From Opitutaceae bacterium TAV5 (lineage in GTDB: Bacteria; Verrucomicrobiota; Verrucomicrobiia; Opitutales; Opitutaceae), in contig CP007053.1 of the NCBI GenBank assembly GCA_000242935.3, positions 5,813,001 to 5,877,000 of the forward strand: a stretch of 64,000 nucleotides of DNA, written 5' to 3'. Made by a program: the position numbers and the translations under genes. This document shows positions 42,243-54,212 of the stretch, piece by piece; position 1 is the first letter of the stretch, and each line of letters starts with the position of its first letter. The notes below the pieces were generated by a model, which did no database searches, was not told the origin of the DNA, and was given only the letters and a program-made list of their open reading frames with translations.

Positions 42243-43791
42243 AGGTTTGACCCGAATGGCGCTAAGTTAAGGTCATTTTCCGATTATTTTTGTCGTCTGG
42301 ATATGGATACGCACATCTGATGTCTGGGACGGGTCATGAACTGGTAGCCTTTCGGGCGTCGTTTGAGGCATCGAGGTTCGGAGCGATCGGGGCGGAAGGG
42401 GAGCGGATCGGATGCCAGGGCGAGCAGGAGGTCCCCGAGGCGAGTGGAAGCCTGCGGGGAGCAGGCGGCGAAGAGAGGGGCGAAGGCGCGCAGGGTGCTG
42501 ACGGTGCCCTTGAACGAGATACGGGAGGGAGGCACATCGTGCTGGCGGGCTGCCTCGAGCATGAGCAGGCGGATCAGGTTGTAGACGATGGCCTGCATGA
42601 GGATCTCCTTTTCGATCATGGCCGGGGTCTGCGTGCGCAGCACATCCAGCCCCAGGGTGGTCTTGATGCTGCGGAAGTTCAGTTCGACCTGCCAGCGCAG
42701 GCGGAACAGGCCGGCGATGGCCGCATCCGGATACATCGCTTCATCAAGCAGCGTGGTGACCACGGCGATGTGGTCGGTGCGGAAGCCGGGTACCCGGACA
42801 CGGAAACGCACCACGCGCAGGGGCAGGCCGGCCGGCAGTTCTTTCCACAGGGATTTTTCCCATGGCCCCTGTCGTTGCGGTTTGGGCCAGCAGACCGGAC
42901 CGGTCCCGGTTTTGCGTCCCTGGTGCAGGCGCATGACCACATCGACACCCTTGCGCCGGAACAGGGCGATCAGCGCCCAGTTGCAAAATCCACGATCCGT
43001 CAGCAACACCTCGCCCGGATGAACCCAGCCGATCACCTGACGCGCCAGCGGCGCCTCGTGGGCCTTCCACGAGGAGACCACGAACCTGACCAGGTGCCCG
43101 GTGCACAGCGAGAACAGGCCCAGGAACTGGCCGGTGGGGAACCCGCAGCCCTTGCGCTGACACCCCGCATACGGGAAAACCTTCCGGTTGGCCGCGGTGT
43201 CGGGCATGGACAGGCCGCAGCCATCCAGCACCTTGACCGTCCGGCCCTGCCACCGGTCCGCCTGTCGCGCCCGTGTGTCGCCATGCCGCGCCAGCTGCCC
43301 GAAGGCCGCTCGCAGAACCTGGACAGGGAGCCGGCGGCGAGCCTGGCAATACCCTGCGCTCGAGTCGTCCACCCCTGCCGCGCCTCCCGCGGCCAGATAC
43401 CACGCCTGCACCCGCCGCACCGCATCCCGGCAACTGGCTCCCCGCTGCATCACCTGCCCCAGAAACGCGCAAAAGGTGACCCACGGCGTGAACACCCGTT
43501 CCCGTTCACCGGCCCCGTCAAACAGCTTCGCCGGCACGAACCGGCCCGCCACCGCCGCCAGCCCGTCCAGCTTCAGCGCCTTGCCCGACAGCCTTTCGGC
43601 CTGCCTGCCCAACCGCCCACCGCACAAACGATGCGAAAACCCGGGAAGATATAACGTGTTGATCCTCATCAAGTTGATGATTATCAGACGATTTTAGCAT
43701 ATCAATCTAATAATCAAGTGATTATAAAACTAATACTGCCCTTCCCCCGCTCTTTGCCTTGCCCTAACTTAGCGCCATTCAGGTTTGACCC
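42243..43791. mobile_element. IS4-family insertion sequence with 11-bp target duplication
   Basis: The element runs 42254-43780 (1527 bp). The left end GAATGGCGCTAAGTTAAGG (42254-42272) and the right end (43762-43780, reverse complement GAATGGCGCTAAGTTAGGG) are 19-bp inverted repeats with one mismatch. Both ends are flanked by AGGTTTGACCC (42243-42253 and 43781-43791), an 11-bp target duplication. The size, ends and duplication length fit the IS4/IS231-like group. The intact duplication implies a fairly recent insertion. Confidence 0.92.
42284..43669 (-). CDS. IS4-family transposase
   Basis: A 461-residue DDE transposase. The first Asp is in VKVLDGCGLSMPD, the second in VLLTDRGF, and the Glu in RWQVELNFRSIKTTLG, the IS4-type C1 region. 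It fills nearly all of the element and appears intact. The start is the ATG at 43669; the codon before it is a TTG. A GC-rich gene inside an AT-rich neighbourhood (43680-44800), consistent with its arrival by transposition. Confidence 0.92.
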   Translation of the reverse strand: MRINTLYLPGFSHRLCGGRLGRQAERLSGKALKLDGLAAVAGRFVPAKLFDGAGERERVFTPWVTFCAFLGQVMQRGASCRDAVRRVQAWYLAAGGAAGVDDSSAGYCQARRRLPVQVLRAAFGQLARHGDTRARQADRWQGRTVKVLDGCGLSMPDTAANRKVFPYAGCQRKGCGFPTGQFLGLFSLCTGHLVRFVVSSWKAHEAPLARQVIGWVHPGEVLLTDRGFCNWALIALFRRKGVDVVMRLHQGRKTGTGPVCWPKPQRQGPWEKSLWKELPAGLPLRVVRFRVRVPGFRTDHIAVVTTLLDEAMYPDAAIAGLFRLRWQVELNFRSIKTTLGLDVLRTQTPAMIEKEILMQAIVYNLIRLLMLEAARQHDVPPSRISFKGTVSTLRAFAPLFAACSPQASTRLGDLLLALASDPLPFRPDRSEPRCLKRRPKGYQFMTRPRHQMCVSISRRQK

Positions 43792-44170
43792 TGTCGGATG
43801 GGCCTTCCGCTTGGTCCTCAAAGACATCAAGCAAGCCCCCTTCTCGGGTTTGCCTCATGATCTCAAGAGACTTCTGTGCGCCCTCTTGCAAACCTGTCCG
43901 CCAAGCATCTACTTCGGTTTTAGAATAGTTCTCTGGACTGATAATCAATGCACCTATTGCATCTGGTCCCAGTTCAAGCCCATATCTATAACCCGTGTAA
44001 TAAGCATTGTTTTCTTCATGGTTATTATAGTGAACTGGACCTAATGCCGCCATTAATTTCTCTATCTGTTCTTCGGTTATTCCTTGGGTCTTAGGTGAAT
44101 ACTCCATATAGGCGTCATGTTTGCACCCGGCGGCTAAAAAAGAAAGTGCGATGAATAGTATGTTTTTCAT
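43769..44170 (-). CDS. Small lipoprotein, candidate RHS-linked immunity protein
   Basis: A 133-residue protein with a lipoprotein signal (MKNILFIALSFLAAGCKH; lipobox LAAGC). The mature part is soluble and acidic (ITEEQIEKLMAALG, YYTGYRYGLELGPDAIGAL). No family is recognised. It starts 4 bp after the stop of the RHS gene, has the same low GC, and so probably belongs to it. In polymorphic toxin loci the gene directly after the toxin usually encodes immunity. The last three residues (EWR) and stop come from the inserted IS4 element. Without the insertion the TAA would follow the Pro directly, so the protein is extended, not broken. Confidence 0.6.
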   Translation of the reverse strand: MKNILFIALSFLAAGCKHDAYMEYSPKTQGITEEQIEKLMAALGPVHYNNHEENNAYYTGYRYGLELGPDAIGALIISPENYSKTEVDAWRTGLQEGAQKSLEIMRQTREGGLLDVFEDQAEGPSDRVKPEWR

Positions 44171-44174
44171 TATT

Positions 44175-47100
44175 TTAATCAATCCATACAACTGGAATTA
44201 GATCTCCACTTATATCCTGTATGTTATCAATACCAACCATCCTTAGTTCACCATTGAAGTTACCGGTGATGATATTTTCTTGGCCGATCTTTGCCTGTAC
44301 CTGCACTGCAATTTCCTTGTAATGCATGATCATACGATCGCCACGTTCCATTGATTTTCTAAACTTTTGCTCCCAGTCTTTTTGGCAGGCATCTCCGATA
44401 CCTATCCCTTTCATCTTATTATATTCTTTTTCAACCAATCCATACATCCCTTTGTAAAAATGTGTCCAAACCTTGATTCTTTTATCTTCGTGAGCCAAGA
44501 TGGCAGATCGGCCACCAGCACTTACCTTGTGCCCTCCGACAATTACCCCGCGCTTTGCGCGGTAACTTGAGATTTCGAAGATAAAATTCAATTTGTTTCG
44601 ATCTCCACATTCACATTTCTTGTCATCATTATAAAAGTCGATTTTGTGGTGTGTCTTGTCAAGTGGAACTTCTGTCCATCCATAGGTTCTACCTCGTCCA
44701 GCAGGCCCGCCTAACCTTAGGTCATTTCCGTCTACGTCTATCTTCTTAATCGTTATTCTAACCGAACCGTGCGGATCGATGGTGTTCACAGGATCGGGAA
44801 AACCATATAAATTGATGCCGCCGTCTTCTTCTATAATATCTCGATTTATCCATCGTCCGAAATTCGGACTATAGTATCGGTATCCATAGTAAAGAAGAGC
44901 GGTTTCGGTATCGTGATATTTGGTGGAGAAGCCAAATGGTAACTCACCATTGGTACCGGTGGCCACCATGCGTGAGCCAAAAGCGCAATATTCATATTGA
45001 CCCGCGGGGGAGCCGCTTGCGACATCAATCCATATGACGATATTTCCGTTGGCATCATATCCAGGGGCGTATGTATCTGGTATGGCAGTAGTCCAGAGTA
45101 GGCCTCCTACACCTCCGGCTTCCTGAATGGTTTCACTCAAGTCCAAGCCCCATGTGTATGAGCGGGTAACGCTTCCGCCATTCAGAGCGTCGTATTCGGC
45201 AAGCAGATTCCAACCATCGTAGAGGAAACGAATATCGGAGGCCGGAGACCAGAGGCCGGAAGCCTGATTCCAAGTTTGGGCTACCTTACGGATGCGTCGG
45301 GCTTGGTCGTCGTAAGCAAATTCCAGTCGTTGTTTCAGATTCGGATAAAGGCTGGCGATTGCCAAGCGGGTTTCCATCGCCACAAGACGGTTTTCGGCAT
45401 CCCATGTATAATCCCAGAGTCCGTCTTCGGTCAGATTGCCGTCAGCGTCATAGGTGAGTGCTTCCGGATCCTTGGCCAGAAAGGCATCGCGCAGTTCGGT
45501 GGCAACCTGTTCGGGGGATTTTTTTACGGCCTGCACTTTGAGCGAAACTTGTGCGGCATTGGTCATATTATCCACTGCCAGCGCGTGAAAGAAATCAGCC
45601 TCGGTGCGCGTGGTCAGGTGGTCATTCGCCAGCACGGTGGTGTCGACATTGGCGGAGCCACGAACATCTATGAAGGCAGGCACGTCTCGCTGTTCGTACT
45701 GGTTGAGGGTATTACTCGTGTAGCTAGCGACGCGTCCGTTGGTCACGGTCTGCGTGCGGTTGCCAATGACATCGAAGGTGTAACCGAAGGCATAGCCGGG
45801 GAGCGAGGATGCGTCGGCGAGGCGTTTTTCGGCGGAAGTTAGCTGTCCGAGCGCATCGTATCCGTAATTCCAAGAGCGGCTATCTTCATGCGTAACCTGC
45901 GTGCGCTGGTTGGCAGCGTTATACGTGTAATCACGGCGGGCGTGGAGGATGGAGCCGTTGCCGAGCGTGTCCACGCGGGTGATGCGCCCGAGCGCGTCGA
46001 ACGTGCGCTCTTGCCGGACGCGTTCGGTGCCGTTGTTGCGGATTGTCGTGGTGGTGACTGCCCCAAGGTGGGGATGATACGTATAGGTGGCGGAATGAGT
46101 CCCCTGCGCGAGGGTGGCGAGGTGTGAGCCGGCGTCGTAAGTATAAATTACAGCCGGAATATCCGTTGCGGTGTAGCCGGACGGGCGTTGCAGGGCGTCC
46201 CAAGTGCGCGTAAGCGATTTACCCGAGAGCAGGCCGGTTCCCGAGTATGTTTCGGAGGTGAGCCGCCGGTTGTCGTCGTACGTGCGGGTGAGCAGGCCTG
46301 CCGCGTCGCTCGTGGTGAGGATCTGTCCGGAACGGGTGTATGTGTAAGTGACGGTCGGTGTGCTGTCGCTGTAGGTCACGGAAGCCAGGCCACCGGCATC
46401 GGTGTAGCCGTAAGTGGTGACGACGCCGCGTGCCCAAGCACGCGTGGCGAGCCGTCCGGCTGGCGTGTATGTATAGGTCGGTCCTTGGTTGTCGGCATAA
46501 CGCTTGTTGAGCAGCCAGCCGCGTTGCGGGTCGTAATTCCAGGTCGTGACGGCCTCGCCGGCAGTGCCGGCAAAGTCCTTCCAGGTGGTCAGCGTACGGA
46601 GCCGGCCCTGCGCGTCGTACGTGTATTCGGACGGATACGTGCGTGCGCCCCAGGTACGCTTTACCTGCCCGGTCGGGTAGTACGTCGTCTCGGTTTCGGT
46701 TCCGTCGGGATACGTGACCTTCGACTGCCAGCCGCGATTGTTGTAGGTGTAGCGGGTAGTCTGCGCGCCGTCGCCGGGATCGGGTGCAGTCACACTGGCC
46801 ACCTGATCGTCGTCAGAATACGAATACGTAGTCGTTCCAACTCCGGTCATAGTCTGCGAGGAAAGCCGGCCGTGCGGGTCGTACGCATACGTGACTTCCG
46901 AGAGAATGTCGCCATTGGCATCCTTGCGGGTTTCTCCGGCAAGGCGGCCTTGGGAATACATGCGGATTGTTTGTGTGCCGTCGGGAGCGGTGACGGTTTC
47001 GGTGCGGTTGCCCGCTCCGTCCTGCGTGAGGGTGGTGTGGGTGGTGAGTCCGTTGGTCGTCGTCCACGTTTGCTGGCCGTCGAGCGTGGTATCGACAGTC

Positions 47101-50100
47101 GTGATCACGGTCGGAGTATCGGTCTCTGTCATCCAGGATTCCGATACAGTCCTGCGGACGGGGGTTGTTGACGCCGGCGCTTCACCCCGGGTCGCTATTT
47201 CCGTCACCGTCCGCTGGATACGGTCTGGTCCAGTATAATCAATCGAGCCGTTCCGGTTGATGTCGAGTGCGGTGACGGTTTGTTCCCCCTTGTCGTTCCA
47301 AGCAAACAGCGTCTGCACGCCGTCGGCATCGGTCTGCCGGACGAGTTGGCCTTTCGCATTGTAGCCAAACGTTTCGGCGGCGCCGTCGGGATATTCGCGG
47401 CGGACGGTCTGGCCGAGCGGATTGGTCAAGGTTCTGGTCCATTCGGTTTCCTCGCCTTCGGAGCCTGTGGCGATTTCCTGCGTCCAGCGCAGGCCGGCGG
47501 AAGTAACGCCGTACAGCATCTTTTCCGGGCGCGCGGTGGTGCCGGTAACGGAAAGCGTCCGGCCATCGCGATGGCTGGTCGTGGTGGTGGGGGCTCCGTC
47601 CGGTGTGGTGATGATGCTGATTTCACCGCCGGCAGGCGTCTTGTCATAGGTATACGTGGTTCGGTTGCCGAGCGCGTCTTCGGTCCAGATCGTGCGGCCG
47701 GCAAGATCGTAGGCGGTCATCGACTGGACAATCGAACTGCCGTCGGTGCCGATGCGAGTGGTTTTCACGGCCCGGCCGGCGGCGTCGAGGGTTGTCTGCA
47801 TCTGAATCCCGTTGCGCATTTCATTCACGAGCCGGCCAAGCGAATCGTAAGTATAGAGGGTTTCGATGCCGTCGCGATCCTTGTAGCGCAGCAGTTGCCC
47901 GCAGCAGGCGTATTCAAGTTCTTCGGTGGTTCCGTCGAGATGGGTGTAGGCAACGGGACGACCGCGTTGGGCGTCGTCGTTTTCATAGGCGCTGGCCTTG
48001 CGCAGGGAAATGATTTCGCGGCTCTTGATGTCGCGGACTTCTTCACGAATGACGAGTCCGCGTCCGTTGGTCTCGGTGTAGATAATCGTGCCATCGGCCA
48101 CGCCCCAGCCGGTGTCGTCCACGGTGCCGGTCTGCGTAATGGCGAGGTAGCCACCGGCGACGGAGGGTTGTTCCGTTTCGAGTGTGACAATCCCGTCAGG
48201 GCGAAGGGTGCGCCAGCGTTTGTTGTTGGTCAGATCATAGTCGATTTTTGTCACGAGATTGCCGGGAGCATCCCACGCCGCGCCGGGCGTGGCGGCGTCC
48301 ACTTCCCATACCTGTTTGACTGTGCGGGTGGTGGCGGTATCGCCGAGCGCGACAGGTACAGGCTCCAGCCACGTGAGTGCGTAGCGGCGGCCCACTTCCT
48401 GACCGGCGATCCGCTCCGTGCGGGTAACGAGTTTTACAGGTTGCCCGTTGACTGTGATCTGTTCGCGGGTGGTTTCAAAATAATGGTGACTGGACAGGTC
48501 GGCATCCGTTCGCAGGGAATCCAGCCAGGGCATGATTTCCTGATGATACTCACCTTCCGGGGTGTAGGTGTAGCGCTCCCAACGTCCGTCAGGATACTCG
48601 ACGTAGTCGAGCCGGTCGGTGCCGGGAAAATAATGCCAGCGGGTGGTCTGCGCGTCGGTGGCACTGTCGGGGTTGAGCACCGACTCGATTTTGCGCTGGA
48701 AACCGTTGGGGCCGGTTTCATAGGTGGTCTTTTCCCTGGAAACGACGGTGCCGTTGATCTCCTTGAGCGTGCGGATTTCTACGGGAAGGCCGTTCTCTGT
48801 CGTTTTCTCCAGAGTCTCCGTAGCCAGTCCGTCGCGGTTGAGCGACCAGACTCCGTTGTTTTCTCCAAACGTGTAGACCTGGTTGCCACCACCGGCCATG
48901 CGCCTGATCTGCATCTGCAAAAAATCGCCGGCCGTGGCCGGCACAAAATGCCAGGAAGAGGTGAGGGTGGCGAAGTCTGAACCGGGGGCATAAAACCGGA
49001 TGGCGAAACCGCCACCGGCCAAGTCCTCGATCAGGATGTCCGCGTCGGGGGCATGTACCTGGCGGACCACGTCTTCATCGTCCCTGACGAGTTTCACCGA
49101 ACCGTCGCTGCCGAGCAGCTGGTAGATGAGAGAGCCGGGAGAAAACGCCGCTTCATTCATTTGTTCGGCAAGGAGCTTGATATAGCCGGCATTGGCACCG
49201 TCCCAGGTCGCTCCAAGAGAGAGCTCCATGTGCATGCTGCCGGTTTTCGGTGTCCCGCAGGCGGCTTCGCCGGCAACTCCCGGCTCCGGAATGTGCTCGA
49301 AGACGATGCCTTTCGGTCCGGGGCGGTATTCCATGCAGGGCTGCAGCGGCAGGTTGAAATCCGCCCATACCCCGGATTCACAGTTACCCTCCGTAAGCTC
49401 TATTTCTGTGGTCAACTCGGTCGGCTCGCTCCACGGACGCCCGTTTTGTTCTTCTTCCGGTGTCAGGGGTTTTCTGGAGCGCGACACCACTGACATGATT
49501 GCCTTGTACTTGCCCGGACAGCTCTTCAGCAGGGCACGGATGTTACACACCTGACCTCCTTCATCGATGCAGGGGTCCCCCGGTTCCGGCGGACAACCCA
49601 GCCACCAGTGCGCATCACCCAGATTTTCGAGTTCCACCCAAGGGTATTCCTCGTCCGGCACTCGCGCCAATGCGTCCTCCCATGTGTCGGGTTGGGACAG
49701 GCGGGTGATCTCGATTTGTGCTCCCTCACATTCCCACGTAACATTGGCATTCGGACTATAAGAAGGATCGTTGTTTTTGTCATAGGAAAGTCTGATCATC
49801 TTTTGAGTAGCAAAAACATCTTGATATTCGATTGTATATCCCTGCAGGGGGAAAAAATCTGATGAGTTTTCAAAAAAATCATATTCATCTTCCTCGTCTG
49901 GATAATAATCTGGATCATTGAATGCAACTCCGACTATCAGGTGCGACTTGGTTTCACCATTACGTCGTCTATACCACCCATAATGGTAATACTTATGGGC
50001 GGACTGCTCGCTCAATGCCCAGTAAACACCATCGACAAACCCTTCCTCCTCTGACACACATTCGATTAGGTTTTCTTGATTAAACATGCAGGATTCCGAG

Positions 50101-50414
50101 TGCGATCGTGATGAGGAATTATTGACGTCCTCTCTATACCCTGGGTACTCTGGATTGGAATAAACATAAATAAAGTCATTATAGTAATTCAGGATGTAGT
50201 CTTTTTTTCGATAAAAAAGACCGTCCAATGGAAGACCAAGTTCACTTGTGGTGAAACCTGCCATACAAGCTGCCTCGCCTACAGCCTTTACCTTTATTTT
50301 AATCTCGCTTGGCTCGATTTGTTCGAGTTTACACTCTGCAATCGATGGAGAAACAGAAAACAAGAAATTTACTACAAAAAGGACTGCCAAAATAGTTTTG
50401 AGGAGAGAATTCAT
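44175..50414 (-). CDS. Giant RHS/YD-repeat protein with unique C-terminal tail
   Basis: A 2079-residue exported protein with an N-terminal signal peptide (LLKTILAVLFVVNFLFSVSPS). A unique Asp/Tyr/Ser-rich N-terminal region follows (about 30-230, AT-rich). Then come a long RHS/YD-repeat body (TYTYDSLGRLVNEMRNG, YDADGNLTEDGLWDYTW, YDANGNIVIW) and the RHS core (ALLYYGYRYYSPNFGRWINR, then EEDGGINLYGF, ending IDPHG near residue 1883). After the core the last 196 residues are unrelated, Lys-rich and AT-rich. This is the position of variable toxin domains in RHS proteins. The tail has AHEDK near residue 1975, recalling but not matching an HExxH zinc site (the second His is Arg). Toxin activity is not shown by sequence. 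Confidence 0.85.
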   Translation of the reverse strand: MNSLLKTILAVLFVVNFLFSVSPSIAECKLEQIEPSEIKIKVKAVGEAACMAGFTTSELGLPLDGLFYRKKDYILNYYNDFIYVYSNPEYPGYREDVNNSSSRSHSESCMFNQENLIECVSEEEGFVDGVYWALSEQSAHKYYHYGWYRRRNGETKSHLIVGVAFNDPDYYPDEEDEYDFFENSSDFFPLQGYTIEYQDVFATQKMIRLSYDKNNDPSYSPNANVTWECEGAQIEITRLSQPDTWEDALARVPDEEYPWVELENLGDAHWWLGCPPEPGDPCIDEGGQVCNIRALLKSCPGKYKAIMSVVSRSRKPLTPEEEQNGRPWSEPTELTTEIELTEGNCESGVWADFNLPLQPCMEYRPGPKGIVFEHIPEPGVAGEAACGTPKTGSMHMELSLGATWDGANAGYIKLLAEQMNEAAFSPGSLIYQLLGSDGSVKLVRDDEDVVRQVHAPDADILIEDLAGGGFAIRFYAPGSDFATLTSSWHFVPATAGDFLQMQIRRMAGGGNQVYTFGENNGVWSLNRDGLATETLEKTTENGLPVEIRTLKEINGTVVSREKTTYETGPNGFQRKIESVLNPDSATDAQTTRWHYFPGTDRLDYVEYPDGRWERYTYTPEGEYHQEIMPWLDSLRTDADLSSHHYFETTREQITVNGQPVKLVTRTERIAGQEVGRRYALTWLEPVPVALGDTATTRTVKQVWEVDAATPGAAWDAPGNLVTKIDYDLTNNKRWRTLRPDGIVTLETEQPSVAGGYLAITQTGTVDDTGWGVADGTIIYTETNGRGLVIREEVRDIKSREIISLRKASAYENDDAQRGRPVAYTHLDGTTEELEYACCGQLLRYKDRDGIETLYTYDSLGRLVNEMRNGIQMQTTLDAAGRAVKTTRIGTDGSSIVQSMTAYDLAGRTIWTEDALGNRTTYTYDKTPAGGEISIITTPDGAPTTTTSHRDGRTLSVTGTTARPEKMLYGVTSAGLRWTQEIATGSEGEETEWTRTLTNPLGQTVRREYPDGAAETFGYNAKGQLVRQTDADGVQTLFAWNDKGEQTVTALDINRNGSIDYTGPDRIQRTVTEIATRGEAPASTTPVRRTVSESWMTETDTPTVITTVDTTLDGQQTWTTTNGLTTHTTLTQDGAGNRTETVTAPDGTQTIRMYSQGRLAGETRKDANGDILSEVTYAYDPHGRLSSQTMTGVGTTTYSYSDDDQVASVTAPDPGDGAQTTRYTYNNRGWQSKVTYPDGTETETTYYPTGQVKRTWGARTYPSEYTYDAQGRLRTLTTWKDFAGTAGEAVTTWNYDPQRGWLLNKRYADNQGPTYTYTPAGRLATRAWARGVVTTYGYTDAGGLASVTYSDSTPTVTYTYTRSGQILTTSDAAGLLTRTYDDNRRLTSETYSGTGLLSGKSLTRTWDALQRPSGYTATDIPAVIYTYDAGSHLATLAQGTHSATYTYHPHLGAVTTTTIRNNGTERVRQERTFDALGRITRVDTLGNGSILHARRDYTYNAANQRTQVTHEDSRSWNYGYDALGQLTSAEKRLADASSLPGYAFGYTFDVIGNRTQTVTNGRVASYTSNTLNQYEQRDVPAFIDVRGSANVDTTVLANDHLTTRTEADFFHALAVDNMTNAAQVSLKVQAVKKSPEQVATELRDAFLAKDPEALTYDADGNLTEDGLWDYTWDAENRLVAMETRLAIASLYPNLKQRLEFAYDDQARRIRKVAQTWNQASGLWSPASDIRFLYDGWNLLAEYDALNGGSVTRSYTWGLDLSETIQEAGGVGGLLWTTAIPDTYAPGYDANGNIVIWIDVASGSPAGQYEYCAFGSRMVATGTNGELPFGFSTKYHDTETALLYYGYRYYSPNFGRWINRDIIEEDGGINLYGFPDPVNTIDPHGSVRITIKKIDVDGNDLRLGGPAGRGRTYGWTEVPLDKTHHKIDFYNDDKKCECGDRNKLNFIFEISSYRAKRGVIVGGHKVSAGGRSAILAHEDKRIKVWTHFYKGMYGLVEKEYNKMKGIGIGDACQKDWEQKFRKSMERGDRMIMHYKEIAVQVQAKIGQENIITGNFNGELRMVGIDNIQDISGDLIPVVWID

Positions 50415-50473: not shown

Positions 50474-51193
50474 TCAGGGTGAATAGACGGTGAGGGCCAG
50501 CGCGGCAGGAGGTACTGTCTGGGCGGCGAGAGTCGGATCGGTGTCGGCGAGATATTCGGCGAGGTTGGACAGGCCGTCGCCGTCGGGGTCGGCAGTCGGA
50601 TCGATGCCGATCTGCCCGAAGTGGGCCAGTTCCCAGTTGTCATCGATGCCGTTGCCGTCGGTGTCGACAAAACCGGGTGGCCCCGATGGCACGGTGAAGC
50701 TGAAGACGTGCTTGAGTTGACCAACGTTGACGAGTGCGTAGTTGTCCGCTCCTGACTGGTCGGTGGGCCAAGGATAGGAACTGCCTTCGACGACAGGACC
50801 GACGACGATTCCGGCTGTGGCGAGCCGGTTATAAAACAACTGGGCAACAGCTTTCAGTTGGCCGAGATTGACGGCGGCATAGTCATCGCGGGTAACTCCT
50901 GTGGCTGGTGGCTGTTGCCATGAGGTCACAAGAGCGTTGATTGCCGGACCTGCGCCACCCGGAAGGTGGGCGTTCATTTCCGCCGCCGCTTGCGTGGTAA
51001 TGTGTTTGAGTTGGCCGATGTTTGCCGCCGCATAGTCGTCCGGCGCGGCTGCCGGATCAAGCACCCCCTGCTGCATCCACCATGCAGGCTGCGCCTTCAA
51101 AAGATTCAATGCCTGAAAACCGAGGACTGATATCAATCCGACAAGGAGCAGGGTTAATACCAGACAGCAGCGCCTGCGGGATGGTGAGGTCAT
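50474..51193 (-). CDS. GQLK-repeat protein with TSP3-type calcium motifs
   Basis: A 239-residue protein with an N-terminal membrane anchor or signal (CLVLTLLLVGLISVLGF). It has three copies of a roughly 50-residue unit with the core DDYAAANIGQLKH (residues 52-64), DDYAAVNLGQLKA (103-115) and DNYALVNVGQLKH (150-162). Two thrombospondin-type-3-like acidic loops follow: DTDGNGIDDNWE (177-188) and DPDGDGLSNLAEYLADTDPT (202-221). TSP3 loops bind calcium. It lies between the RHS gene and the head-repeat gene, same strand, 59-60 bp from each. Presumably exported; function unknown. Confidence 0.75.
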   Translation of the reverse strand: MTSPSRRRCCLVLTLLLVGLISVLGFQALNLLKAQPAWWMQQGVLDPAAAPDDYAAANIGQLKHITTQAAAEMNAHLPGGAGPAINALVTSWQQPPATGVTRDDYAAVNLGQLKAVAQLFYNRLATAGIVVGPVVEGSSYPWPTDQSGADNYALVNVGQLKHVFSFTVPSGPPGFVDTDGNGIDDNWELAHFGQIGIDPTADPDGDGLSNLAEYLADTDPTLAAQTVPPAALALTVYSP

Positions 51194-51251: not shown

Positions 51252-54212
51252 TTATTCACCCTGATAACGGAGTCCGGCATTGAGAGTGCTCGGGTCGTTG
51301 CCCTGCGTGAATGTTCCCATCGAGACATCCCCGCCCGGAGGAATGCGGATGCCGCCTTTGGCTTCAAAGGGACCTGCCGAACGGGTTGTACCATTCTTGT
51401 GAACCGCAAAGGCATTGCTGTAGGTCCATTCGTCCCAATCACCGTTGCCGATGACAAAGAGATCGTCGCTTGGCACCCATGCAGTCCTGGAGCCCTGGGC
51501 AACGTTAAGCCGTCCGATGGCAAACAGGTTGATGGCCTGCGCCTGGTTGTAGTAGCCAAACGCAGCTGTGTAGTCTCCGCTGGCAGAATTTCCGCTGCCA
51601 ATAGCTGTGGAAGCGGAACCGGATGCACTGCCGGATTCACCCAGTGCGACAGATACCGGACCGGATGCCGAACTCCATAAGCCGCCCGCGAGCGAATAAT
51701 CGCCGTTGGCAGAATTGCCTTCACCTCCCAGGATTACTGATCCGTAGCCGGATGCCGTGTTCCCCCAGCCACCGCCAATAAAAGAGCTACTTCCAGATGC
51801 CGTATTATACGCTCCTCCTACTGCTGTGGCATTATAGTTTGTTGTTCTGTTATATTCCCCGATGGCAATGCTGGATGAACCTGTGGCCGTGCTATTATAA
51901 CCCAAACTGATGGTGTTTGGGCCGATGGCAAAAGCATTGTCACCCATTGCAATGGCGTTTGAGCCGGGTGCCATTGCATTGCCCCATGCAATACTTGCTG
52001 CGGCAGGCTGAAACACATCGATAATCGGCTCACTTATTGGTAACGTGACGAAAAAAGGCATCCAGTTACCCAAGATGAGTGTATCGCCCAATGTGAAATT
52101 TTCCTCAGTGGAATACCCGCTGAGAACAATTTCCTCGTTTGAGGGTGATAACGTGATCCTATTGATTTCCGCCGGTATCAATTTCGTCCATAGTGATGCT
52201 CCGGCGTTGTCGAGTTTCAGGATATAACCATTGGCATAACTGATGGCATTGACATTAACCCCGGCCATATCCAGCGGTGTCCCCTCACTGGCGGAGATAT
52301 AACCGAAAATATAAATATTGTTAGCGGCATCCAATGCCAAACCGTTGGTATAGTCTGAATCGGTATGGCCAATTATCCGTGCCCATTGTCCGGCCCCGGC
52401 TGTATTCAATTTGAGAACATAGCCATCTTGATTGCCTTTTGCGGTGACAGTGATTCCGGCGAGATTCACCGTCTGGCCTGCGGTACGACTAAAATTTCCG
52501 ACCACATAAACATTGCCGGAGCCATCGACGGCCAAGCCTTTGAGGTAATCAGAACTGCTGTGGCCGAGAATTTTTGCCCATTGCCCAGCTCCGGCACTGT
52601 TCAGTTTAAGGACATAGCCGTCCAGATTGCCCTGCGCGGTGACAGTGATCCCGGCGAGGTTCACGGTCTGGTTCGCAGTACGATTAAGTTCTCCGGCCAC
52701 ATAAACATTGCCAGAGCCATCGACGGCCAAGCCTCTGACATAATCGGAATTGCTGTGGCCGAGGATTTTTGCCCATTGCCCGGCTCCGGCACTGTTCAGT
52801 TTAAGGACATAGCCATCGTTACCGCCCTGAGCGGTAACGCTGATTCCGGCAAGGTTCACTGTCTGGTTTGCTGTCTGGTTGACATAGCCGGAAACGTACA
52901 CGTTGCCACTGCTGTCCAAAACCACTTTTTCGGCATAATCGGAGTTGGTAGAACCCATCACTTTTGCCCATTGGCCGACTCCGGCACTGTTCAGTTTGAG
53001 CACAAAGCCATCGTTGCTCCCCTGCGCGGTGACAGAAACTCCGGCAAGACCGATCGCCTGTCCCGCCGTGCCGTTAAGAGATCCGATAACAAATACATTG
53101 CCGGAGGCATCTACCGTCACACTTTTGGCAGACTCGGAGCCGGTGCCGCCGATTACCTTCACCCACTGGGCGGCTCCGGCATTGTTGAGTTTCAGAACAT
53201 AGCCATCGTTGCCGCCCTGCGCAGTGACGGAAACCCCGGCAAGGCTGATGCTTTTGCCTGCCGTCGAGGACAAATACCCGACCACGTAAATATTGCCGGA
53301 AGCATCTGTCACAATGCCTTGCGGGGCTCCGGAGACATACCAGACCTTATTCCATGAAACCGTTCCTGCCGGAGTGCGTTTGAGAACAAATTGGTTCGTA
53401 GTCGTGGAACTGCCGTAAATCGTGGAATTGCCGATTTTGACCGAGGAACCGGAAAATGTTCCCGCTAGGTATTGGTTTCCTGCCGTATCATAAACAATCG
53501 AAATGCTCCCTGAATTTTGTGATCCGGTAATTATTCCATCGACGTGTGTGGGTTCGACAGGGTTTTCCTGAAAACCGAGGTTTTGCAGGACGGTATTCAG
53601 GTAAGCGGTACTGTTTGCGGTGAGCGCGGCGTCCGGGTTGGACCCAACGATGAGGCCGTTGGCGAAGGTGACGCGTCCATCCTCGCCAACCTGCGCCACG
53701 ATCTGATCGGAGGCGTTATAGAGCGCGGTGCTGCGCAGAGAGGACTGGTTGGCAATCAGGGTGCCATCGGACAAACGGAATCCTCCCGGTGCGCTGATTT
53801 CGCCCGTTGCGGGGGTCAGCGTGATCGTGGACGCGCCCGTGGTATCGTGGAGGGTCAGCGTGTTGTCCGCTCCGAGGGTCATCTTCGGCGTGGCAGTGCT
53901 CGCATCGGTAGAACCTTCTTTCCAGAGGTATTCGACCGCAGACCGGGCAGCGTAAACAACCACCTGCCGGGTTGCGCCGTTTTCCTGATAGGTGAGCAAC
54001 AGGGCTATCTGGCCATCTCCGGTTGTACCGAGGTCGGCGTGGTTGCTTTCGACGTGGAGTTGTCCCGAGACGGTGAGCGAACCGGTGTCATCCGGGCCGG
54101 GGTTGATAACATGATCACCGGTGAGCGTAACGGGATCGGCACGGGTGACGGTTACAGACGCAGTCGCGAGAAGCGCCAGCGCGGCGCACAGGCAGGGCAG
54201 AGGAGTTTTCAT
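51252..54212 (-). CDS. Surface protein: 65-residue propeller repeats plus YadA-like head
   Basis: A 986-residue protein with a signal peptide (ALALLATASVTVTRA). An N-terminal region (about 30-220, including TTGASTITLTPATGEI) resembles phage-tail or trimeric adhesin collars. Residues about 240-670 are about seven tandem 65-residue SBBP-type beta-propeller units (GYVLKLNSAGAGQWAKILG, VDGSGNVYVAGELN). Residues about 715-890 hold YadA/hemagglutinin head repeats (NTASGYGSVILGGEGNSANG, SGSASTAIGSGNSASGDYT). A short C-terminal domain (NAFAVHKNGTTRSAGPFEAKG, LNAGLRYQGE) recalls tail-fibre ends. No membrane-anchor barrel is present. It probably forms an extracellular adhesin or receptor part. Confidence 0.8.
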   Translation of the reverse strand: MKTPLPCLCAALALLATASVTVTRADPVTLTGDHVINPGPDDTGSLTVSGQLHVESNHADLGTTGDGQIALLLTYQENGATRQVVVYAARSAVEYLWKEGSTDASTATPKMTLGADNTLTLHDTTGASTITLTPATGEISAPGGFRLSDGTLIANQSSLRSTALYNASDQIVAQVGEDGRVTFANGLIVGSNPDAALTANSTAYLNTVLQNLGFQENPVEPTHVDGIITGSQNSGSISIVYDTAGNQYLAGTFSGSSVKIGNSTIYGSSTTTNQFVLKRTPAGTVSWNKVWYVSGAPQGIVTDASGNIYVVGYLSSTAGKSISLAGVSVTAQGGNDGYVLKLNNAGAAQWVKVIGGTGSESAKSVTVDASGNVFVIGSLNGTAGQAIGLAGVSVTAQGSNDGFVLKLNSAGVGQWAKVMGSTNSDYAEKVVLDSSGNVYVSGYVNQTANQTVNLAGISVTAQGGNDGYVLKLNSAGAGQWAKILGHSNSDYVRGLAVDGSGNVYVAGELNRTANQTVNLAGITVTAQGNLDGYVLKLNSAGAGQWAKILGHSSSDYLKGLAVDGSGNVYVVGNFSRTAGQTVNLAGITVTAKGNQDGYVLKLNTAGAGQWARIIGHTDSDYTNGLALDAANNIYIFGYISASEGTPLDMAGVNVNAISYANGYILKLDNAGASLWTKLIPAEINRITLSPSNEEIVLSGYSTEENFTLGDTLILGNWMPFFVTLPISEPIIDVFQPAAASIAWGNAMAPGSNAIAMGDNAFAIGPNTISLGYNSTATGSSSIAIGEYNRTTNYNATAVGGAYNTASGSSSFIGGGWGNTASGYGSVILGGEGNSANGDYSLAGGLWSSASGPVSVALGESGSASGSASTAIGSGNSASGDYTAAFGYYNQAQAINLFAIGRLNVAQGSRTAWVPSDDLFVIGNGDWDEWTYSNAFAVHKNGTTRSAGPFEAKGGIRIPPGGDVSMGTFTQGNDPSTLNAGLRYQGE
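52186..53356 (-). repeat. Tandem 195-bp repeats in the surface protein gene
   Basis: Units of exactly 195 bp (65 codons), with corresponding landmarks at 52186, 52381, 52576, 52771, 52966 and 53161. Units at 52381, 52576, 52771 and 52966 are the most alike: the segment beginning GCCCATTG and the ACTGTTCAGTTTAAGGACAT stretch recur with only a few changes. Confidence 0.8.

Follow-up and report, generated by a model that had tools for sequence, protein, structure and literature searches.

A Sec-signal Rhs protein of Opitutaceae bacterium TAV5 with a candidate HExxR toxin domain and an adjoining lipoprotein gene

The Rhs gene, its core and the adjoining lipoprotein gene

The Rhs locus described here lies in a 64-kb stretch (the window, to which all positions below refer) covering 5813001-5877000 of the 7,317,842 bp chromosome of Opitutaceae bacterium TAV5, the source of which is a wood-feeding termite (PMC4358385). 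An open reading frame (ORF) on the minus strand (44175..50414) encodes an RHS/YD-repeat protein of 2079 amino acids, and it is followed on the same strand by a gene for a lipoprotein of 133 amino acids (43769..44170), the candidate immunity protein. The Rhs protein has an N-terminal signal peptide, MNSLLKTILAVLFVVNFLFSVSPSIAEC, recognized by inspection, and matches the RHS_repeat family PF05593 in 11 stretches (7.2e-23). The Rhs-associated core end covers residues 1809-1883 (44766..44990, minus strand; TIGR03696, Rhs_assc_core, E=1.8e-18) and contains two aspartates of a putative autocleavage site, D1859 in NRDII and D1880 in IDPHG.

An earlier note on this DNA had placed the end of the core at IDPHG, with 196 residues after it, and recomputation gave the same boundary, the motif being found at 44766-44780. 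The C-terminal tail beyond it (44175..44765, minus strand; 196 amino acids plus the stop codon) was recognized as a candidate toxin domain of an HExxR family by profile searches and alignment. Its description as Lys-rich, AT-rich and unlike the body also holds: Lys makes up 10.2% of the tail against 2.3% of Rhs residues 241-1883, and the GC content is 0.413 against 0.594 in the core, with 0.625 in the whole window. The first ~200 residues of the Rhs protein (49750-50414) are likewise AT-rich (~40% GC) and poorly conserved in comparison with the paralogues; this end of the protein may therefore be subject to exchange as well.

The lipoprotein gene starts with an ATG at 44170, 4 bp past the Rhs stop codon. 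This is a likelier start than the TTG at 44191, which gives the listed ORF of 140 amino acids. The signal peptide ends in the lipobox Cys, MKNILFIALSFLAAGC (by inspection), and the predicted mature protein starts at the Cys of LAAGC. With a GC content of 0.45 the gene is the low-GC lipoprotein gene that had been noted earlier at this distance from the Rhs stop. No match was found in Pfam, and weak matches over short stretches (E 0.04-0.09) were rejected as homologues.

A family of tails with an invariant HExxR motif

The tail had no match in Pfam, NCBIfam, PHROGs or PDB; the profile search against toxin families that the earlier note had proposed thus gave no name from any library. A direct search of 388 genomes of the phylum, genome contigs, viral contigs, plasmids and phages found nothing. 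When 373 genomes of the order were searched, a single relative was obtained (G592; E=3.9e-5, 37% identity over 96 residues), which is itself an Rhs C-terminus. The other weak matches inspected were unrelated proteins, for example aldolase-like and translation-factor-like ones.

A profile of two rows gave three relatives from another family of the same class, G221 (1.0e-12), G082 (1.5e-5) and G096 (0.012), a profile of five rows gave G244 (3.7e-16) and G883 (1.0e-12), and a profile of seven rows gave G149 (1.5e-17). Profile scores of proteins already inside a profile are no independent evidence; pairwise phmmer links within the eight tails reach 1e-47. All seven relatives of the TAV5 tail are Rhs C-termini from other Verrucomicrobiota, with divergent cores and spread over several families of the phylum. 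The five-row set, compared with Pfam, NCBIfam and PDB, had no relative there.

The only invariant residues in the final alignment of the eight tails are H95, E96 and R99 (P0003 numbering), all eight reading HE-x-[KR]-R, and a C-x-C or CC is frequent ahead of the HE helix. In the TAV5 protein the motif is HEDKR, residues 1975-1979 (44478..44492, minus strand), with His1975, Glu1976 and Arg1979 as the residues invariant in 8/8. The AHEDK reported earlier near residue 1975 is the same site, as HEDKR starts exactly there. The tail belongs to a family of likely antibacterial toxins that is absent from earlier listings and falls within a known kind of system.

The earlier note had taken AHEDK as a partial zinc-peptidase motif without the second His, an interpretation that does not agree with the alignment. 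Because His, Glu and Arg are invariant in 8/8, the missing second His is a rule of the family rather than a sign of zinc-peptidase decay. The Tox-MPTase1-5 and DUF922 zinc peptidases share with the tails an HE pair on a helix, and the Tox-MPTases are likewise found behind Rhs repeats, but these peptidases carry the HExxH zinc motif of zincin toxins whereas all eight tails carry HExxR. Homology to the DUF922 zincins, suggested by the layout around the HE helix, was not supported: hhalign of the tails against five DUF922 proteins gave a probability of 0.7%, although the HE helices were aligned, and the profile scores were in both directions within the range of shuffled sequences. A Pfam scan at E<=10, by which the other zincin families were covered, had no zincin among its matches.

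Mosaic paralogues, exported partners and neighbouring genes

The TAV5 genome contains nine Rhs_assc_core loci. Three of the encoded proteins (L018, L019 and L020) are 46-92% identical to the Rhs protein per 100 residues over positions 1001-1900, with lower values N-terminally, and in the block 1901-2000 they agree at 11-17% of aligned positions only. Each is followed, at -60 to +9 bp, by a gene of its own with a transmembrane (TM) or exported product, and at all four loci the DNA of tail and partner is 39-49% GC against 60-65% in the cores. A kept core joined to unrelated tails and differing downstream genes is the pattern typical of polymorphic toxins and their immunity proteins, whose cassettes recombine. 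At L020 (G000:C1:6395834-6410834) more small ORFs, exported or toxin-tail-like, were seen within 3 kb downstream of the Rhs gene. Between them lies a repeated stretch whose translation is RRLGRQPARMNRNQ, and a similar stretch is found near L016.

In 8/8 members of the HExxR family the gene after the tail encodes an exported protein. The partner is a lipoprotein in three (the TAV5 locus, L167 and L171) and a signal-peptide protein in five (L137, L159, L160, L161 and L168). The partner gene of L160 is separated from the Rhs gene by about 80 bp; at the other loci the two genes overlap or are no more than about 20 bp apart. The partners fall into several unrelated groups, and only those of L159 and L161 are homologous (8.6e-36); the tails of these two loci are also the closest pair, and L161 holds a tandem second copy of the partner. 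Several immunity families against one toxin family are known, as for colicin M (PMC7073777). The proposal of a polymorphic toxin-immunity pair in the earlier note is supported by the mosaic paralogues together with the eight-member tail family, and its suggestion of a toxin acting outside the cytoplasm gains support from the exported partners of all eight tails.

Partners were also surveyed more widely in Opitutaceae, at 92 Rhs loci that have an ORF close downstream; genes were called by ORF only. Of the 92 partners, 67 carry a TM helix or a hydrophobic segment at the N-terminus and 16 a lipobox; for 40 window genes the corresponding counts are 17 (Fisher p=0.0015) and 2 (Fisher p=0.09). Seven loci (L016, L036, L043, L060, L077, L078 and L085) have Rhs tails with lipase-type motifs (GHSxG, HSQG or GYSAG) and exported or lipoprotein partners. 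A further locus, L127 (G416:C1:5526617-5537000), contains, within 10 kb, four successive units of Rhs core end and tail with a different exported partner behind each one, an arrangement that looks like stacked, displaced toxin-immunity cassettes.

Downstream of the lipoprotein gene lies an insertion sequence (IS) element of IS4-like type (42254..43780, minus strand), with inverted ends and a DDE_Tnp_1 transposase at 42284-43672. Its 11-bp target duplication (42243-42253 and 43781-43791) falls exactly at the original stop codon of the lipoprotein. On the lipoprotein strand the duplication ends ...GTC AAA CCT and a TAA stands just beyond the far end of the element, from which it follows that the gene once ended ...DRVKP-stop. 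The insertion exchanged this stop for GAA TGG CGC TAA, a gain of three residues (EWR). Truncation of the lipoprotein by the element was therefore rejected, since the stop was replaced, only EWR was added and the gene survived. Such a gene-sparing insertion is compatible with selection on the lipoprotein gene but is no proof of it. The element is a neighbour, outside the toxin system, and has one distant relative only elsewhere in the genome (64% identity).

Upstream of the Rhs gene lie genes for two exported proteins, both on the minus strand. The first (50474..51193) encodes 239 amino acids with a calcium-binding-like C-terminus, DTDGNGIDDNW; at L018 and L020 a copy of its C-terminal 67 residues runs up to the start of the Rhs gene, and the whole protein has a relative upstream of L019. 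The second (51252..54212; 986 amino acids), with SBBP beta-propeller and YadA head repeats, also has a relative upstream of L019. In a scan for promoters and terminators the sites were no more numerous than in shuffles.

A candidate envelope-directed toxin and its putative immunity protein

The preferred interpretation, with a probability of roughly 0.7, is that the Rhs protein is a Sec-exported toxin whose HExxR domain attacks the cell envelope of a rival and is neutralized by the lipoprotein as immunity protein. At the level of sequence this interpretation draws on the core/tail mosaic, the tail family with its invariant HExxR, the signal peptide, the lipobox and the exported partner in 8/8. 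Toxicity, catalysis, cleavage, the site of action and binding by the lipoprotein are what we infer from these features. The Rhs protein would leave the cytoplasm through Sec, with the C-terminal 196 residues enclosed in the YD-repeat shell, and cleavage at the conserved core end would release the tail. Once free, the HExxR tail would damage a target in the envelope of the rival, most likely by an enzymatic activity in which the invariant His, Glu and Arg take part, and in the producer the lipoprotein, located in the periplasm or outer membrane, would neutralize the toxin by binding it.

Export through Sec is indicated by the N-terminal signal peptide. Delivery by a type VI secretion system (T6SS) is unlikely since Pfam gave no PAAR domain match in the Rhs protein and no VgrG was found in the TAV5 genome with PF13296. 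The T6SS Rhs effector RhsA of P. protegens, in which an aspartate dyad is needed to free the tail (PMC8765631), has a core end of the same PxxxxDPxG type and aspartates at the positions of the two in TAV5, but the TAV5 protein differs in having a signal peptide and no PAAR. Release of the tail by cleavage at D1859 and D1880, the counterparts of the RhsA dyad, is plausible only, as their spacing differs from that in RhsA.

A number of observations weigh against this interpretation. The spacing of D1859 and D1880 is 21 residues, compared with 22 in RhsA and 23 in the paralogue L018, and being two residues under L018 it may mean that autocleavage is impaired. The lipoprotein is without a detectable homologue, so its co-inheritance with the tail cannot be followed, and a single-sequence AlphaFold model of the tail was uninformative (pLDDT 32). 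In the partner survey the control is weak, as small window genes (<320 amino acids) are often exported too (8/14), and a regular-expression test relating exported partners to lipase-type GxSxG motifs was not significant (p=0.43).

The envelope as target compartment is deduced from the exported partners, which suggest it as support and not as proof. The locus could instead encode a toxin-immunity pair in which the toxin works in the cytoplasm of the target cell and the lipoprotein serves to keep it out or to trap it on the cell surface, in place of shielding an envelope target. Nucleases are common among Rhs toxins, including the paralogue L017 with its WHH/colicin-DNase tail, and membrane immunity proteins that may block uptake have been proposed (PMC3482391). 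A Pfam scan of 20 tails per partner kind, in which 4 and 2 tails were named when one pre-toxin domain was left out, points in the other direction. The few named tails with non-exported partners were WHH/colicin-DNase (2), Tox-REase-7 and Fic-like, while those with lipoprotein-type partners were phospholipase A2-like and Mbeg1 lipase-like. The eight HExxR tails, moreover, all have exported partners, though of several unrelated kinds, and a cytoplasmic target is considered unlikely.

Somewhat less probable still is that the tail is ordinary variable surface sequence of an Rhs protein and the lipoprotein an unrelated neighbour. The lack of a match to any known toxin family would fit such an explanation, but the tail family keeps three invariant polar residues on divergent cores from several families of the phylum, and in every case an exported partner is encoded close by. 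The least probable explanation is a tail that descends, in degenerate form, from a zinc peptidase (zincin or DUF922-like), with the fold kept and metal binding lost, and that serves in binding or adhesion instead of acting as a toxin. Speaking for it are an HE pair that probably lies on a helix, a succession of Thr, Cys, HE helix, Cys and a further helix that is DUF922-like by eye, and the YadA-head and beta-propeller repeats encoded upstream. Against it, the fifth-position Arg does not vary among the eight diverse relatives, as it would under free decay, the DUF922 comparisons failed, and a tail swap at the core boundary with an adjoining exported partner suits toxin and immunity better.

Several known systems come close to the TAV5 locus. 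The Sec-signal Rhs/YD toxins of the T2SS/Sec class (T2SS, type II secretion system; Zhang et al. 2012, PMC3482391) share the signal peptide, YD-repeat shell, conserved core end, variable C-terminal tail and small adjoining partner gene; the text of that catalogue is without an HExxR family, current Pfam and NCBIfam miss the tail, and the TAV5 partner is exported. Imm65, the sole lipoprotein of the 2012 immunity collection and the immunity protein of Tox-JAB-1 (PMC3482391), is also a lipobox protein beside an Rhs toxin, but the TAV5 lipoprotein lacks a Pfam match and the candidate toxin beside it is not a JAB domain. The TANFOR toxins of Bacteroidetes (PMC7073777) are likewise large and exported by Sec; their toxin ends can be swapped, and immunity genes adjoin theirs. 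They differ in their scaffold and in the proposed export by a type IX secretion system (T9SS), and lipoproteins are unmentioned in PMC7073777.

More tentatively, and with the odds rather against it, the HExxR tails may form a new, non-zincin class of enzyme toxins that attack the cell envelope and are borne by Sec-exported Rhs proteins throughout Verrucomicrobiota, in a lineage whose Rhs partners would mostly be membrane or lipoprotein immunity proteins. With this locus a candidate toxin family not described before, recognizable by a compact three-residue signature, is added from a phylum in which antagonism between bacteria has been little studied. In Opitutaceae, partners that are lipoproteins or otherwise exported look common, which would point to envelope-directed Rhs toxins that act without a T6SS.

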